Both the position numbers and the translations under genes were made by a program. The notes under the pieces were generated by a model, which made no database searches, was not told where the DNA came from, and worked only from the letters and a program-made list of their open reading frames with translations. From positions 4,885 through 68,884 of the forward strand of contig CADEGH010000016.1 of NCBI GenBank assembly GCA_902826835.1: a stretch of 64,000 nucleotides of DNA, written 5' to 3'. Origin of the DNA: an uncultured bacterium. Its GTDB lineage: Bacteria; Planctomycetota; GCA-002687715. Shown piece after piece: positions 162 through 4,978 of this stretch; positions within the stretch are counted from its first letter, which is position 1; each line of letters starts with the position of its first letter.

Positions 162-1802
162 TCACAGCCCCAAGTAGCGCGGCCCGCCGTTGTCCTGCGG
201 CACCGTCCAAGTGATGATCGAGTAGGGATCCGCGACGTCGCAGGTCTTGCAGTGCACACAATTGGAGAAGTTGATCTGGAGCCGTCGGTCCTTGCCGATC
301 GTGCCGACCATTTCATACACCGCCGCGGGACAGAATCGCTCGCAGGGATTGCCGAACTCGGTCGCGCATTTCGAGGCACACACCGAGGGGTCGGCCACGA
401 GGAGGTGGCTCGGCTGGTGCTCTTCGTGCACGGAGCCAGCGTTGAACACTCCGGAGAGTTTGTCGATGGTCAATTTGCCGTCGGGTTTGAAACTGCGATC
501 GGCGCTCGCTTGTCCCTTGTGCATCGCCTCGTGGTCAGCGTGGATCGGCAGCCGATCCGCGAAGATCTTGCCTCCGAGCGCCCAGGCGAGGCCGGCCACG
601 AACTTGCCGCGACCGAATCCGTGACGGCTGAACGCCTGCCGCCAATTGCGCACGCGCCACAACTCCTCTTTGATCCAGGAGGCTTGCACACGCTCCTCGT
701 ACTTGGCGAGCATGCGCTCCGTGGCGTCTCCGGCGAGGAGCGCTTCCGCGATTGTCTCGGCGGCGAGGATTCCGGACTTGATCGCGGTGTGAATCCCCTT
801 CAGACGCGCGATGTTGAGCAGCGAACCGGAGTCTCCAATGATCAGGAAGCCGTTCCCGTGGCTCTTCGGGCGCGACCAATAGCCACCCTCGGGGACCGTC
901 TTTGAACCCGACTTCAGAATCGTCCCGCCCGCGAGCAGGGCCGCGACAAACGGGTGACTCTTCCAGGTCTGCATGATCTCGTAGGGGTCGGTGCCGGGAT
1001 TGCCCCCGTCGAGCGCGGTCACAAATCCGATGCTGAGCTTGGTGTCGGAAATCGCGTAGATCCAGGATCCGCCGTACGTCGTATTCGGGAGAGGCCAGCC
1101 GGCCGAGTGGTAGACCGTGCCCTTCTGGATGCGGCCGGCGGGGATCTCCCAGACCTCTTTCACGCCGGTGCCGTACACCTGGGGATTCGGCCCTTGCAGT
1201 TGGAGGCCGTCGACGAGTTTCTTGGTGAGCGACCCGCGGCTGCCTTCCCCGAGCACGGTGATAGTGGCCTGCACCTCGGCGCCCGGCTCGAATCCGGATT
1301 CCTCGCTGCCGTCGGGCGCGCGTCCGCGATCGACCAAACGAACCCCCATGACGTGCCCGCCATTGATCACGAGGTCAGCGGCAGGCATTCCCTCCGCGAT
1401 CGTGACGCCGAGGGCTTCCGCCTGGTCCTTCATCCACCGGACGACCTGCGAAAGGGTGACAATCACGCACCCGTGATTCTTGAGCGTCGGGGGCAGGAAC
1501 GGGAGTTTTTTCGCCGCGTCCTTCGTGAAGGTGAACACCTCTTCTTTGCCGACGTCGGCGTCGACCGGGCAGCCCTGCGCGCGCCAATCGGCCCCGTAGA
1601 GCTCGACCATGGCCTTCGGATCCATGATGGCGCCCGAAAGGATGTGGTCGCCGACCTCGCGACCTTTCTCGAGCACCATGATCTGGAAGTCGTCGGCGCG
1701 GCCCTTCTCCGCGAGCAGCTTCTTCAGGCGGTAGGCGCAGGCGAGATTGGCGGGGCCGGCTCCGACCAAGACCACATCGACCGGCATGACCTCGCGTTCC
1801 AT
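162..1802 (-). CDS. Electron transfer flavoprotein:ubiquinone oxidoreductase (ETF dehydrogenase)
   Basis: This 546-residue FAD/4Fe-4S enzyme passes electrons from reduced ETF to the membrane quinone pool. The N-terminus carries the dinucleotide-binding motif VLVGAGPANLACAYRL. The C-terminal ferredoxin-like part has a cysteine in FCPAAVYE and the cluster motif NCVHCKTCDVADP, followed by the typical ITWTVPQDNGGPRY ending. The length matches the family. The ATG at 1802 is preceded by AAGGA at a spacing of five bases. It lies ten bases downstream of the lipoprotein gene at 1813-2652, so the two are probably co-transcribed. Its partners etfA and etfB are in the same window at 26.5-28.2 kb but not adjacent. 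The family assignment is secure. Confidence 0.96.
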   Translation of the reverse strand: MEREVMPVDVVLVGAGPANLACAYRLKKLLAEKGRADDFQIMVLEKGREVGDHILSGAIMDPKAMVELYGADWRAQGCPVDADVGKEEVFTFTKDAAKKLPFLPPTLKNHGCVIVTLSQVVRWMKDQAEALGVTIAEGMPAADLVINGGHVMGVRLVDRGRAPDGSEESGFEPGAEVQATITVLGEGSRGSLTKKLVDGLQLQGPNPQVYGTGVKEVWEIPAGRIQKGTVYHSAGWPLPNTTYGGSWIYAISDTKLSIGFVTALDGGNPGTDPYEIMQTWKSHPFVAALLAGGTILKSGSKTVPEGGYWSRPKSHGNGFLIIGDSGSLLNIARLKGIHTAIKSGILAAETIAEALLAGDATERMLAKYEERVQASWIKEELWRVRNWRQAFSRHGFGRGKFVAGLAWALGGKIFADRLPIHADHEAMHKGQASADRSFKPDGKLTIDKLSGVFNAGSVHEEHQPSHLLVADPSVCASKCATEFGNPCERFCPAAVYEMVGTIGKDRRLQINFSNCVHCKTCDVADPYSIITWTVPQDNGGPRYLGL

Positions 1803-1812
1803 CAGCGTCCTT

Positions 1813-2652
1813 TCAAGGCAGGGGGGCGGCGCTCGGCCGCTCGTGGCTCACTAGTTCGAGGGCGACCGATCCACCGGGGACACGGCCGCGCATTTCGAGA
1901 AGGGGGCGGCCGGGCGTTTCCAGAAGAAAGGCCTCGAGGCGCGTCATCGGCTCCTCGGAAATCGGCTGGCCGCCGGCGTCGAGTCGGCGCGTTTCTACCG
2001 AAAGTGGCCGACCCACGTTTTGGTCTTCGCCCTCCCCGCGGGTTTCGAGGGGGCCAGCGCGCAGGGTCATTTGGTGGAGGTCGCCACCTTCCACCACCAG
2101 CAAGCGCGCCTCGCCGCCCAGAGCGTCGTAGTCGATCGCGCGACCGAGGAAGAGCGCCAGAGTGGGGTCGAGGATGTCTCGGCCCACGCTACGCCGAGAC
2201 TCGCGCAGTTTCCCTTCAACCTTCGCGCTGTGCACGACGCCGTCGCCGCCGAAGAAGGCGGTGCGGGTTGCCGGGTCCTTCCGCGCCGCCGTCACCCAGA
2301 TGGAGGCCCGGGGCCGCAGCGTATCGGGGTCGATCCAGGTCCGGGAGGTACCACCGATCTTCGCGAACGCGGCGACCAGCGCGCTCGGCTCGGTGATCGC
2401 ATCCAGCACGAGCAGTTTTTGGTCCCCATCGCGGACTTCTGACACCTCGTAACGCACTCCGCCCACTGGCAGAAAGCCGCCCCAGGTGATGTCGTACCGG
2501 CTCTTCGCCCCAACCTCGAAGACCTCGCGGGCTTCGGGCCGAAGCGGAAGGGTGGTCGTGCCCAACTCGCCGCCGAGTGGTGCGGGGTCCGACGCGCAGG
2601 CGAAAAGCCCGCACAGAAGCCCCCAACCGATTTTCTGGACCGTCTTGCCCAC
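1813..2652 (-). CDS. Lipoprotein of DUF3108 type
   Basis: A 279-residue protein with a short hydrophobic signal ending in a lipobox-like LFAC (cysteine near residue 19), so it is predicted to be lipid-anchored. The mature part has the flow of DUF3108 proteins: an opening such as SRYDITWGGFLPVGGVRYEV, then a segment about conversion to other units (TWIDPDTLRPRASIWV) and later YDALGGEARLLVVEGG. DUF3108 proteins are envelope proteins of unknown function. The start is GTG at 2652, with GGAGA about nine bases before it. It precedes the ETF-QO gene by ten bases. The divergent tRNA-Cys promoter lies just upstream. The link to electron transfer may be only positional. Confidence 0.72.
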   Translation of the reverse strand: MGKTVQKIGWGLLCGLFACASDPAPLGGELGTTTLPLRPEAREVFEVGAKSRYDITWGGFLPVGGVRYEVSEVRDGDQKLLVLDAITEPSALVAAFAKIGGTSRTWIDPDTLRPRASIWVTAARKDPATRTAFFGGDGVVHSAKVEGKLRESRRSVGRDILDPTLALFLGRAIDYDALGGEARLLVVEGGDLHQMTLRAGPLETRGEGEDQNVGRPLSVETRRLDAGGQPISEEPMTRLEAFLLETPGRPLLEMRGRVPGGSVALELVSHERPSAAPLP

Positions 2653-2720: not shown

Positions 2721-2791
2721 GGCGCCATAGCCAAGCGGTTAGGCAGCGGATTGCAAATCCGTTAAGCCCGGTTCGACTCCGGGTGGCGCCT
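2721..2791 (+). tRNA. tRNA-Cys (GCA)
   Basis: The cloverleaf closes with acceptor strands GGCGCCA (2721-2727) and TGGCGCC (2784-2790). The anticodon loop is TTGCAAA with anticodon GCA, and the T loop is TTCGACT. The discriminator base is T (2791), as expected for cysteine tRNAs. CCA is not encoded. Downstream, 2792-2983 holds nothing I can identify. Confidence 0.95.
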
Positions 2792-2983
2792 CTGGGTTTC
2801 GCCTCGAAAACGAGGAAGTCGGGGCGACTGGTGACGACGAGAAATCCGTCAAGATCCCGAAGTCAGTGGAGCAGGAACTGGACAATCCAGGTCAGACGGG
2901 CACCACGCTGGTGTCGCGGTGCTGAGGCGTCATGAATTGTCGACAGCGCGAGCGTCGCGCGCGCGAACCGGCACGGACCTGAG

Positions 2984-3436
2984 TCACTTCGGAGGCGAGG
3001 CCAGCGTCGCGAGCAGGGACTTCGCCTGGCCAGCGGGGTCCTTGGTGTCGAGGACGTGCTCGAGGAGGCCTGTCTTGCCGATCACGAAGGTATGGCGCTT
3101 CGGGTAGACGGCTTTGGTGTCCGAGGCTGCCCCTAGGGCCACTGCCAAGGAACGATCCGAGTCGGAAAGCAGGGAGTAGGGGAACGCGTACTTCTTCGCA
3201 AACGCGGCGTTGTCGGCCGGAGAGTCGAACGAGACGCCGAAGATGCGAACGCCGAGCGAGGCGAACTGGGCGGCTTCGTCACGGAAGCCGCAGCCCTGCT
3301 TGGTTCAGCCGGGGGTATCGGCTTTGGGGTAGAACCAAATCACGGTGCGCTGCCCGATCAGGTCGGAATTGCGCACGGTCTTGCCGGTGTGGTCGGTCAG
3401 GGAGAACGGTGGAAGTGGATCGCCGGGTTTGGGCAT
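2984..3436 (-). CDS. bcp: Peroxiredoxin Q/Bcp, predicted selenoprotein (UGA read as selenocysteine at residue 44)
   Basis: Thiol peroxidase of the Bcp/PrxQ family, which reduces hydroperoxides. The ATG at 3436 has GAGGG six bases upstream. Forty-three codons read to FYPKADTPG, then TGA (3305-3307), then TKQGCGFRDEAAQF and on in the same frame to TGA at 2984-2986. Read through, the product is 150 residues, close to the 156 of E. coli Bcp. The UGA replaces the peroxidatic cysteine of the family motif PGCT. The cysteine at residue 49 keeps the i/i+5 resolving position (Cys45/Cys50 in E. coli). A hairpin at 3268-3296 fits a bacterial SECIS. The gene is divergent from gltX. The alternative is a nonsense-mutated pseudogene, which the intact downstream frame and hairpin make less likely. 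Confidence 0.87.
3268..3296 (-). promoter_or_regulatory. Putative bacterial SECIS hairpin downstream of the selenocysteine UGA
   Basis: On the minus strand, eight bases after the UGA, GGGC pairs with GCCC and GGCUUC pairs with GAAGCC, with a UGC bulge on the 5' side. The apical loop is the six bases CGUGAC, with G second and U third. The GU lies 22-23 bases beyond the last base of the UGA. Bacterial SECIS elements recognised by SelB lie inside the coding region just downstream of UGA and use a loop G (often GU) with a bulged U below. The fold was done by hand. Confidence 0.75.
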
Positions 3437-3502
3437 GGGAATCCCTCGGAGTTTGGGCGGAGCCCAGTAGTATGCCCCCTCATCCTGCAAGGAGTTCTCC
3501 CT

Positions 3503-4978
3503 GTGACCAAGAAGGTTCGGGTCCGATTTGCGCCCAGCCCCACCGGCTATCTGCACGTGGGCGGGGCCCGTACTGCCCTCTTCAACTGGCTGTTCGCCCG
3601 CCAGCAGGGGGGAACTTACATCCTCCGCATGGAGGACACCGACGAGGCCCGCAACACCGACGAGGCCCGGCGCACGATCTTCCAGGGCCTGCACTGGCTC
3701 GGTCTCGACCCAGACGAGGGCCCCGAGCAGGGCGGACCCTGCGCGCCTTACTCCCAGAGTGAGCGGCAGGCGATCTACGCGCGTTGCATCGAAGAGCTGA
3801 AAGCCAAGGGCGGGGTTTACCCGTGTTTCTGCACCAAGGAACGGCTGTCCCAACTCCGCGCCGAGCAGGAGCGCACTCGCCAGACGTTCCGCTACGACCG
3901 CCACTGCCGCAGCCTGACTGCGGCGGAGATCGAACGTCGCATCGCCGGGGGAGAAGCTCCGACGTGGAGGCTCAAAGTCCCCCCGGGGGAGACGGTGCTC
4001 GTCGACTTGGTCCGAGGCCGAATCGTGGTCGGGCACGACGATGTCGAAGACATCATCCTCGTGCGGGCCGACGGCACGCCGATCTACAACCTCGCGGTCG
4101 TGATCGACGATCACACCATGGGGGTCACCCACGTTCTGCGCGGTGAGGATCACCTCACCAACTGCTTCAAGCAGATCATCCTCTTCAAAGCATTTGGCTG
4201 GGACGTTCCCGAGTACGGTCACTTGCCGCTGATCCTCGCCCCGGCTGGCGAAGGCAAGTTGTCGAAGCGCAAGCACAAAGAGGCGGCCCTCGACCACTAC
4301 ATCGACATCGGATACCACGTCGAGGCGCTCATCAACTGGCTCGCCCTCATCGGATGGTCCTACGACGACAAGACCGAGATCATGACCCGCGCCGAATTGA
4401 CCGAGCGATTCACGATCGCGCGCGTCGGCTCCGGCGGGGCGCGTCTCAATTTGGACAAGCTCCTGCACATGAGCGGGGAGTACATCCGCAAGACTCCGCT
4501 CGAGACCGTGCTGGCGGAAACGACTCCACGACTCGTCAAAGCCGGGTACGTGTCCAATCCCCCGACGGCGGAGGAGGCGGTGAAGATCCGGGCGCTCGTC
4601 CGCGCCGAACACGAACGCCTTAAGGCTTACGGTGAGATCGTCGGCATGGCGAAATGGGCGTTCGAGCGCGACCTTGTGATCGAACCCGAGGCCCAAAAGA
4701 ACCTGCGCAAGCACCCGGGCTCATCCGACATGCTCCGGGCCTACGCCGACACTCTGACCGACCCCCTTCCTTCCATCTCCGAACTCGAGGCCCAGGGCCG
4801 CGCCTTCGCCGCCGCCCGTGGCATCGGTTTCGGCCAATTCGTCCACCCCGTCCGGGCGGCCCTGACCGGTCGCACCCAGGGCCCACCGCTCTTCGACTGC
4901 CTCACCATCCTCGGCCCCGCCGAAGCCACCCGTCGCCTCCGCCACGGCGCCACCCTCGCCTCCGCCCCCTCGGCCTAA
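3503..4978 (+). CDS. gltX: Glutamate--tRNA ligase
   Basis: Class I aminoacyl-tRNA synthetase of 491 residues that charges tRNA-Glu. The HIGH-type signature is FAPSPTGYLHVGGART near the N-terminus, and the KMSKS-type loop is GKLSKRKHKEAA. A cysteine-rich insert (CFCTKERL, then YDRHC) matches the zinc-binding segment of bacterial GluRS. The start is GTG at 3503, with AAGGAG eight bases upstream. Longer in-frame starts would run through the divergent bcp gene. A tRNA-Glu gene follows 58 bases after the stop. Whether the enzyme also charges tRNA-Gln cannot be told from this window, which shows no gatCAB. Confidence 0.96.
   Translation: MTKKVRVRFAPSPTGYLHVGGARTALFNWLFARQQGGTYILRMEDTDEARNTDEARRTIFQGLHWLGLDPDEGPEQGGPCAPYSQSERQAIYARCIEELKAKGGVYPCFCTKERLSQLRAEQERTRQTFRYDRHCRSLTAAEIERRIAGGEAPTWRLKVPPGETVLVDLVRGRIVVGHDDVEDIILVRADGTPIYNLAVVIDDHTMGVTHVLRGEDHLTNCFKQIILFKAFGWDVPEYGHLPLILAPAGEGKLSKRKHKEAALDHYIDIGYHVEALINWLALIGWSYDDKTEIMTRAELTERFTIARVGSGGARLNLDKLLHMSGEYIRKTPLETVLAETTPRLVKAGYVSNPPTAEEAVKIRALVRAEHERLKAYGEIVGMAKWAFERDLVIEPEAQKNLRKHPGSSDMLRAYADTLTDPLPSISELEAQGRAFAAARGIGFGQFVHPVRAALTGRTQGPPLFDCLTILGPAEATRRLRHGATLASAPSA

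Follow-up and report, generated by a model that had tools for sequence, protein, structure and literature searches.

A PrxQ/Bcp-type peroxiredoxin gene with a predicted selenocysteine at the peroxidatic position in a selenoprotein-rich planctomycete

Introduction

Peroxiredoxins that contain selenocysteine (Sec) in a TxxU motif were listed under COG1225, among the most abundant selenoproteins, in the 2005 Sargasso Sea survey of Zhang, Fomenko and Gladyshev (PMC1088965), and they also appear in the GOS data (PMC2398784), in genomes (PMC1794560) and in a 2026 review (PMC13188914). The kind of gene that we describe here is therefore already known, and ours is a further member of a group recognised since 2005. 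We take COG1225 to be the Bcp/PrxQ group. In the listed titles and opening lines of abstracts of the literature joining selenoproteins with PrxQ or Bcp, no Sec form of PrxQ/Bcp is mentioned by name. The TxxU peroxiredoxins of the Sargasso Sea survey (PMC1088965), compared with our gene by description and not by sequence alignment, have in common with it the PF00578 domain, the TxxU motif (here TPGU) and one Sec at the peroxidatic position; as far as those descriptions go, our gene differs from them only in being a new sequence and in its planctomycete host. The fresher points concern the selenoprotein-rich planctomycete itself, the repeated exchange of Sec and Cys, and the persistence of a SECIS hairpin in one Cys relative.

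PrxU, which was first described in Eubacterium acidaminophilum and is of the AhpC/2-Cys type, is a Sec peroxiredoxin too. Our protein reaches 23 bits with its model (NF040737) against a cut-off of 270 and is not a PrxU, while another predicted Sec protein of the same genome (L195) is far nearer to it, at 124 bits. The Sec thiol peroxidase Prx-SUH, with a CxxU motif, is named in the 2026 review (PMC13188914). Like our protein it is a selenoprotein peroxidase, but its CxxU differs from TPGU, and its model (NF045827) is absent from the NCBIfam matches of our protein. Cys-containing PrxQ/Bcp proteins, such as E. coli Bcp, Sulfolobus Bcp1 (3drn) and Xanthomonas PrxQ (5iiz), share the fold and the active-site motif; they are distinguished from our protein by its predicted Sec in place of the peroxidatic Cys and by a predicted SECIS hairpin within its coding sequence.

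The gene lies in a stretch of 64,000 nucleotides (hereafter the window, meaning the whole of the DNA that was analysed). Here we establish by computation the reading frame and fold of this gene, the Sec genes of its genome, the UGA column of its homologues and a conserved hairpin.

Results

Reading frame and neighbourhood

The frame runs on the minus strand from 3436 to 2984. It opens with ATG at 3436 and continues for 43 codons to a TGA at 3307-3305 (codon 44), then for 106 codons to a TGA stop at 2986-2984, giving 150 residues with the UGA residue counted (Table 1). The active-site motif is FYPKADTPG-U-TKQGCGFRDEAA, and the second Cys is residue 49, at U+5. On re-reading, the frame given by the original prediction (start at 3436, TGA after FYPKADTPG, 106 codons on, 150 residues) proved exact, and so did its statement that UGA replaces the first Cys while the second is kept five residues further on. 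The presence of UGA inside this frame exceeds chance.

The arrangement of gltX and the peroxiredoxin gene recurs in two genomes belonging to this family (L022 and L023). A tRNA-Cys gene (window 2721-2792, plus strand) lies directly downstream of the peroxiredoxin gene. A scan of the window for further selenoprotein genes gave none that was convincing; the remaining top candidates among in-frame TGAs flanked by coding-like sequence were ordinary gene junctions.

Table 1. Features of the peroxiredoxin locus and related predicted selenoprotein genes of the same genome. Coordinates are those of the window unless a contig is named.
Feature	Coordinates	Strand	Basis
prxQ/bcp-type peroxiredoxin gene, 150 residues, one predicted selenocysteine	2984..3436, stop codon included	-	PF00578, PRK09437, 3drn
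In-frame UGA, codon 44, peroxidatic Cys column; predicted Sec	3305..3307	-	UGA in 58 rows (window gene included), Cys in 22 phylum rows
Cys49 codon, predicted resolving Cys at Sec+5	3290..3292	-	Sequence; spacing equal in the phylum's Cys homologues
Predicted SECIS core GCGGCUUC(CGUGAC)GAAGCCGC, 8 bp, 6-nt apical loop	3270..3291	-	Fold of -19.9 kcal/mol; homologue comparison
Arg52 codon CGU, bases 1-3 of the predicted SECIS apical loop	3281..3283	-	Codon bias in Sec homologues
GAGGG, possible ribosome-binding site 6 nt 5' of ATG	3443..3447	-	Read from sequence
gltX (glutamate--tRNA ligase), divergent neighbour	3503..4978	+	TIGR00464, 3.9e-138
selD, UGA-containing (L010)	Contig C5, 9218-8178	-	Table-11 ORF begins downstream of UGA
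Eight further predicted selenoprotein genes, besides PrxQ and selD (L195, L200, L202, L203, L204, L206, L210, L211)			AhpC-type peroxiredoxin, SelL-related, four WUGPC thioredoxin-like, deiodinase-family, formate dehydrogenase

Family assignment and predicted fold

With UGA read as a residue, the protein matches Pfam AhpC-TSA (PF00578) at 4e-32 over residues 4-127, and because this match spans both sides of the UGA the two halves belong to one domain. Its best NCBIfam model is PRK09437 (NF006960), the thioredoxin-dependent thiol peroxidase Bcp (1.4e-28, 99.8 bits), followed by a PrxQ model. The score lies below the NF006960 equivalog cut-off of 140 bits, which is a threshold for annotation and no defining trait of the PrxQ/Bcp family; the protein is thus not an equivalog by NCBI's rule, and we call it PrxQ/Bcp-type. 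The nearest solved sequences are 3drn (Bcp1, the closest chain), 5epf, 5enu and other Bcp or peroxiredoxin chains. A structure predicted with Cys standing in for Sec had a pLDDT of 97, and in structure matching ranks 1-5 and several more of the top 16 were Bcp/PrxQ proteins at TM 0.8-0.9, with Bcp1 among the best. The PxxxTPG-C active site of PrxQ/Bcp is present as FYPKADTPGU, and the Pro37, Thr41 and Arg114 columns are conserved in the homologue alignment. E. coli Bcp has its resolving Cys at +5, a PrxQ/Bcp trait that is present here as Cys49. The protein is a PrxQ/Bcp-type peroxiredoxin, for which thioredoxin-dependent activity is predicted.

Distribution of UGA and Cys among homologues

Among the closer homologues of peroxiredoxin type in 12 genomes of the same order, most had UGA at the peroxidatic column. 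Of 392 genomes of the phylum, 264 gave a homologue with an E-value of 1e-12 or lower, and the closest ones nearly all had one in-frame TGA. When 80 homologue rows were read whole, 58 (our gene included) had UGA and 22 had Cys in the identical column, so that the Cys/Sec exchange for which the original prediction had proposed an alignment was indeed found. A pattern scan of named genomes used Cys-only patterns, with which only Cys homologues were detectable.

Among the 49 genomes that encode a Sec peroxiredoxin, selA was present in 46, compared with 241 of 392 overall (Fisher 5e-8, from hand-compiled tallies that ignore kinship). The three in which we found a Sec peroxiredoxin and no selA (G089, G153 and G213) are drafts with an estimated completeness of 67-92% (92% for G089, 67% and 84% for the other two).

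Two side observations were made on the homologues. One genome (G115) has a tandem pair of TGA-containing PrxQ genes (L069), and a pair is also seen at G316:C13:29961-30862; the two genes of a pair were read whole at L069 only. In addition, six loci (L025-L028, L030 and L042) make up a second Sec peroxiredoxin group with the motif FTPTU-S-EIPG and without the +5 Cys. Since a simple hairpin test on these six revealed no strong stem, their SECIS presumably differs or sits elsewhere.

A hairpin conserved in the Sec homologues

The published bSECIS model places an apical loop of 3-9 nt at 16-37 nt after UGA, with G at the first or second loop position, often followed by G or U (PMC13188914). The loop of our gene, CGUGAC, agrees with this model, having 6 nt with G second and then U, and beginning 21 nt after UGA; lower pairs lengthen the fold to about 3299-3261. 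Taken singly the hairpin of our gene is not significant (z -1.65; synonymous-shuffle p 0.28), and the case for a SECIS therefore rests on the family. There the best hairpin past UGA has 7 contiguous pairs (median of 57 distinct Sec rows), as against 4 in the Cys forms (median of 22 rows). Against synonymous-codon shuffles that keep the protein, the mean z was 2.0 for Sec rows and -0.13 for Cys rows, and the two sets of z differ (Mann-Whitney p = 1e-7). On 27 aligned homologues 87% of the stem cells were paired, and at four pairs both partners had changed; the covariation score was 0.236 compared with 0.109 for shuffled data, a value reached by 0 of 500 shuffles, and pairing fell to 49% or less when the partners were slid by one column. 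Codon choice in the loop points the same way: CGT encodes the loop Arg in 37 of the 52 Sec homologues, whose remaining Arg codons are CGT in 8% of cases, and in 1 of the 19 Cys homologues. Our protein has FRDEAAQ where many relatives have FRDRIRD; in its stem the 3' arm is displaced by one base with pairing retained.

Selenocysteine genes and other selenoproteins of the genome

The source genome is a 6.09 Mb draft in 94 contigs, 94% complete. It encodes SelA (E 2.8e-126; 500 bits to TIGR00474), a tRNA-Sec (selC) with a UCA anticodon (76 bits, Rfam cut-off 47) and a full-length SelB (347 bits, over the cut-off). selA, selD and selC follow one another in that order on one contig, and selB is on a separate one. 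selD has an active-site UGA of its own, in GSGG-U-AAKM, and scores 352 bits with the SelD model (cut-off 125). Every one of the four genes that the original prediction had singled out for checking is accordingly present, and its main vulnerability is thereby removed.

A PF00578 search of the genome returned 17 members, eight of which have an internal TGA. In all eight the UGA stands at a catalytic position: an AhpC-type peroxiredoxin, the PrxQ of the window, a SelL-related protein, four TlpA/ResA-like proteins with WUGPC and a deiodinase-family protein. The formate dehydrogenase alpha subunit has UGA in RTUHAPS. The minimum-energy fold places a hairpin past each of nine other UGAs; the loop GGUC is common to several, and the hairpin ACGAGC(GGUC)GCUCGU to three of the WUGPC genes. 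Altogether the genome has at least 10 predicted selenoproteins, SelD and the PrxQ included, which set against a published threshold of six (PMC5029168) makes the organism selenoprotein-rich. The 2016 survey named Deltaproteobacteria, Clostridia and Synergistetes as selenoprotein-rich groups (PMC5029168), and selenoproteins of Planctomycetes have been reported earlier (PMC4807772).

Discussion

Our sequence comparisons make it very probable that this gene encodes a monomer-sized PrxQ/Bcp-type peroxiredoxin with Sec as its peroxidatic residue; that UGA is decoded as Sec, as originally predicted, is strongly supported by the Sec genes, the UGA column and the hairpin. We infer both the insertion of Sec and the chemistry that would follow from it, including any gain in rate. 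SelB with Sec-tRNA(Sec) would bind the hairpin directly 3' of UGA and deliver Sec there in place of termination. The Sec44 selenolate would then attack the O-O bond of a peroxide and become a selenenic acid. The oxidised Sec44 would next join Cys49 in a selenylsulfide, which a thioredoxin-like partner would reduce.

A sequencing or assembly error, or a Cys peroxiredoxin in decay, might be suspected in a draft of 94 contigs and at a codon one base away from TGC or TGT. However, UGA occupies the same column of many independently assembled genomes, the half of the protein after UGA is as conserved as the half before it (identity to homologues of 45-58% downstream and 49-60% upstream), and neither the hairpin nor the codon bias at Arg52 is seen in the Cys forms, the hairpin of one Cys homologue (L062) excepted. 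We regard this explanation as having a negligible probability, and the specific error raised in the original prediction, a true TGC or TGT at 3305-3307, can for practical purposes be dismissed, as TGA recurs at this codon in independent genomes. The many in-frame UGAs in conserved proteins of the genome would also suit an alternative code, in which UGA is generally an amino acid (here Trp, Gly or Cys). Yet the ten in-frame UGAs that were checked all fall at catalytic Cys/Sec positions of recognised redox or selenium enzymes, in the genes examined no housekeeping protein had an in-frame UGA at a Trp or Gly column, and UGA also terminates genes, for example the peroxiredoxin gene itself and those at the nusG/rplK and rpsL/rpsG junctions (named by eye). 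With selA, selB, tRNA-Sec and selD all found, such a code is exceedingly improbable.

UGA is known in general to be read through at a low level, and were Sec absent translation would end at codon 44. A stop that gives a short peptide, or read-through with Cys or Trp at low level and without dedicated machinery, nevertheless seems very unlikely given the conservation of sequence past UGA, a hairpin found in Sec and not in Cys homologues, the co-occurrence with selA, and the placing of UGA exactly in the catalytic column. The protein could also be a selenoprotein with a role other than general peroxide defence, such as a relay, a sensor or a peroxidase that works without a resolving Cys. In a comparison that ignores kinship, the +5 Cys was missing from 18 of 50 Sec homologues and from 1 of 20 Cys homologues, a hint that those relatives that lack it may run a one-Sec cycle. 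Our protein has kept its Cys at +5 together with the complete active-site motif of PrxQ, and we judge a different role for it to be unlikely.

Exchange between Sec and Cys appears to be frequent, since a tree of 102 rows requires at least 18 changes of the Sec/Cys label, in either direction, eight of them forced by well-supported branches. The Cys homologue L062 (genome G358, about 1498-1938, minus strand) has TGC in place of TGA and retains a full 9-pair hairpin, with the loop CGCGAUC compared with CGUGAUC in its Sec relatives; it looks like a recent, and likely, case of Sec-to-Cys change. On the same tree our gene falls beside sequences of another family (f56) and not with the two genomes of its own family. 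Long branches are a possible cause of this placement, and because gltX is the neighbour in those two genomes as well we hold horizontal transfer of the gene to be unproven; gene order argues for orthology with the copies of its own family.

Standard gene callers can truncate or drop genes of this kind, a loss that the original prediction plausibly expected here, and may thereby lead to an underestimate of antioxidant and selenium biology in a phylum that is widespread in the environment. We suggest tentatively, as a wider picture that is possible but somewhat doubtful in its entirety, that the Planctomycetota are selenoprotein-rich, that their PrxQ switches repeatedly between Sec and Cys and leaves SECIS hairpins in fresh Cys converts, and that Sec relaxes the need for a resolving Cys. 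The phylum supplies many natural Sec/Cys pairs, one Cys form with its hairpin still in place among them, and these would offer a direct way into the questions of how and why selenocysteine is acquired or lost by enzymes, and of whether Sec dispenses with the resolving Cys.
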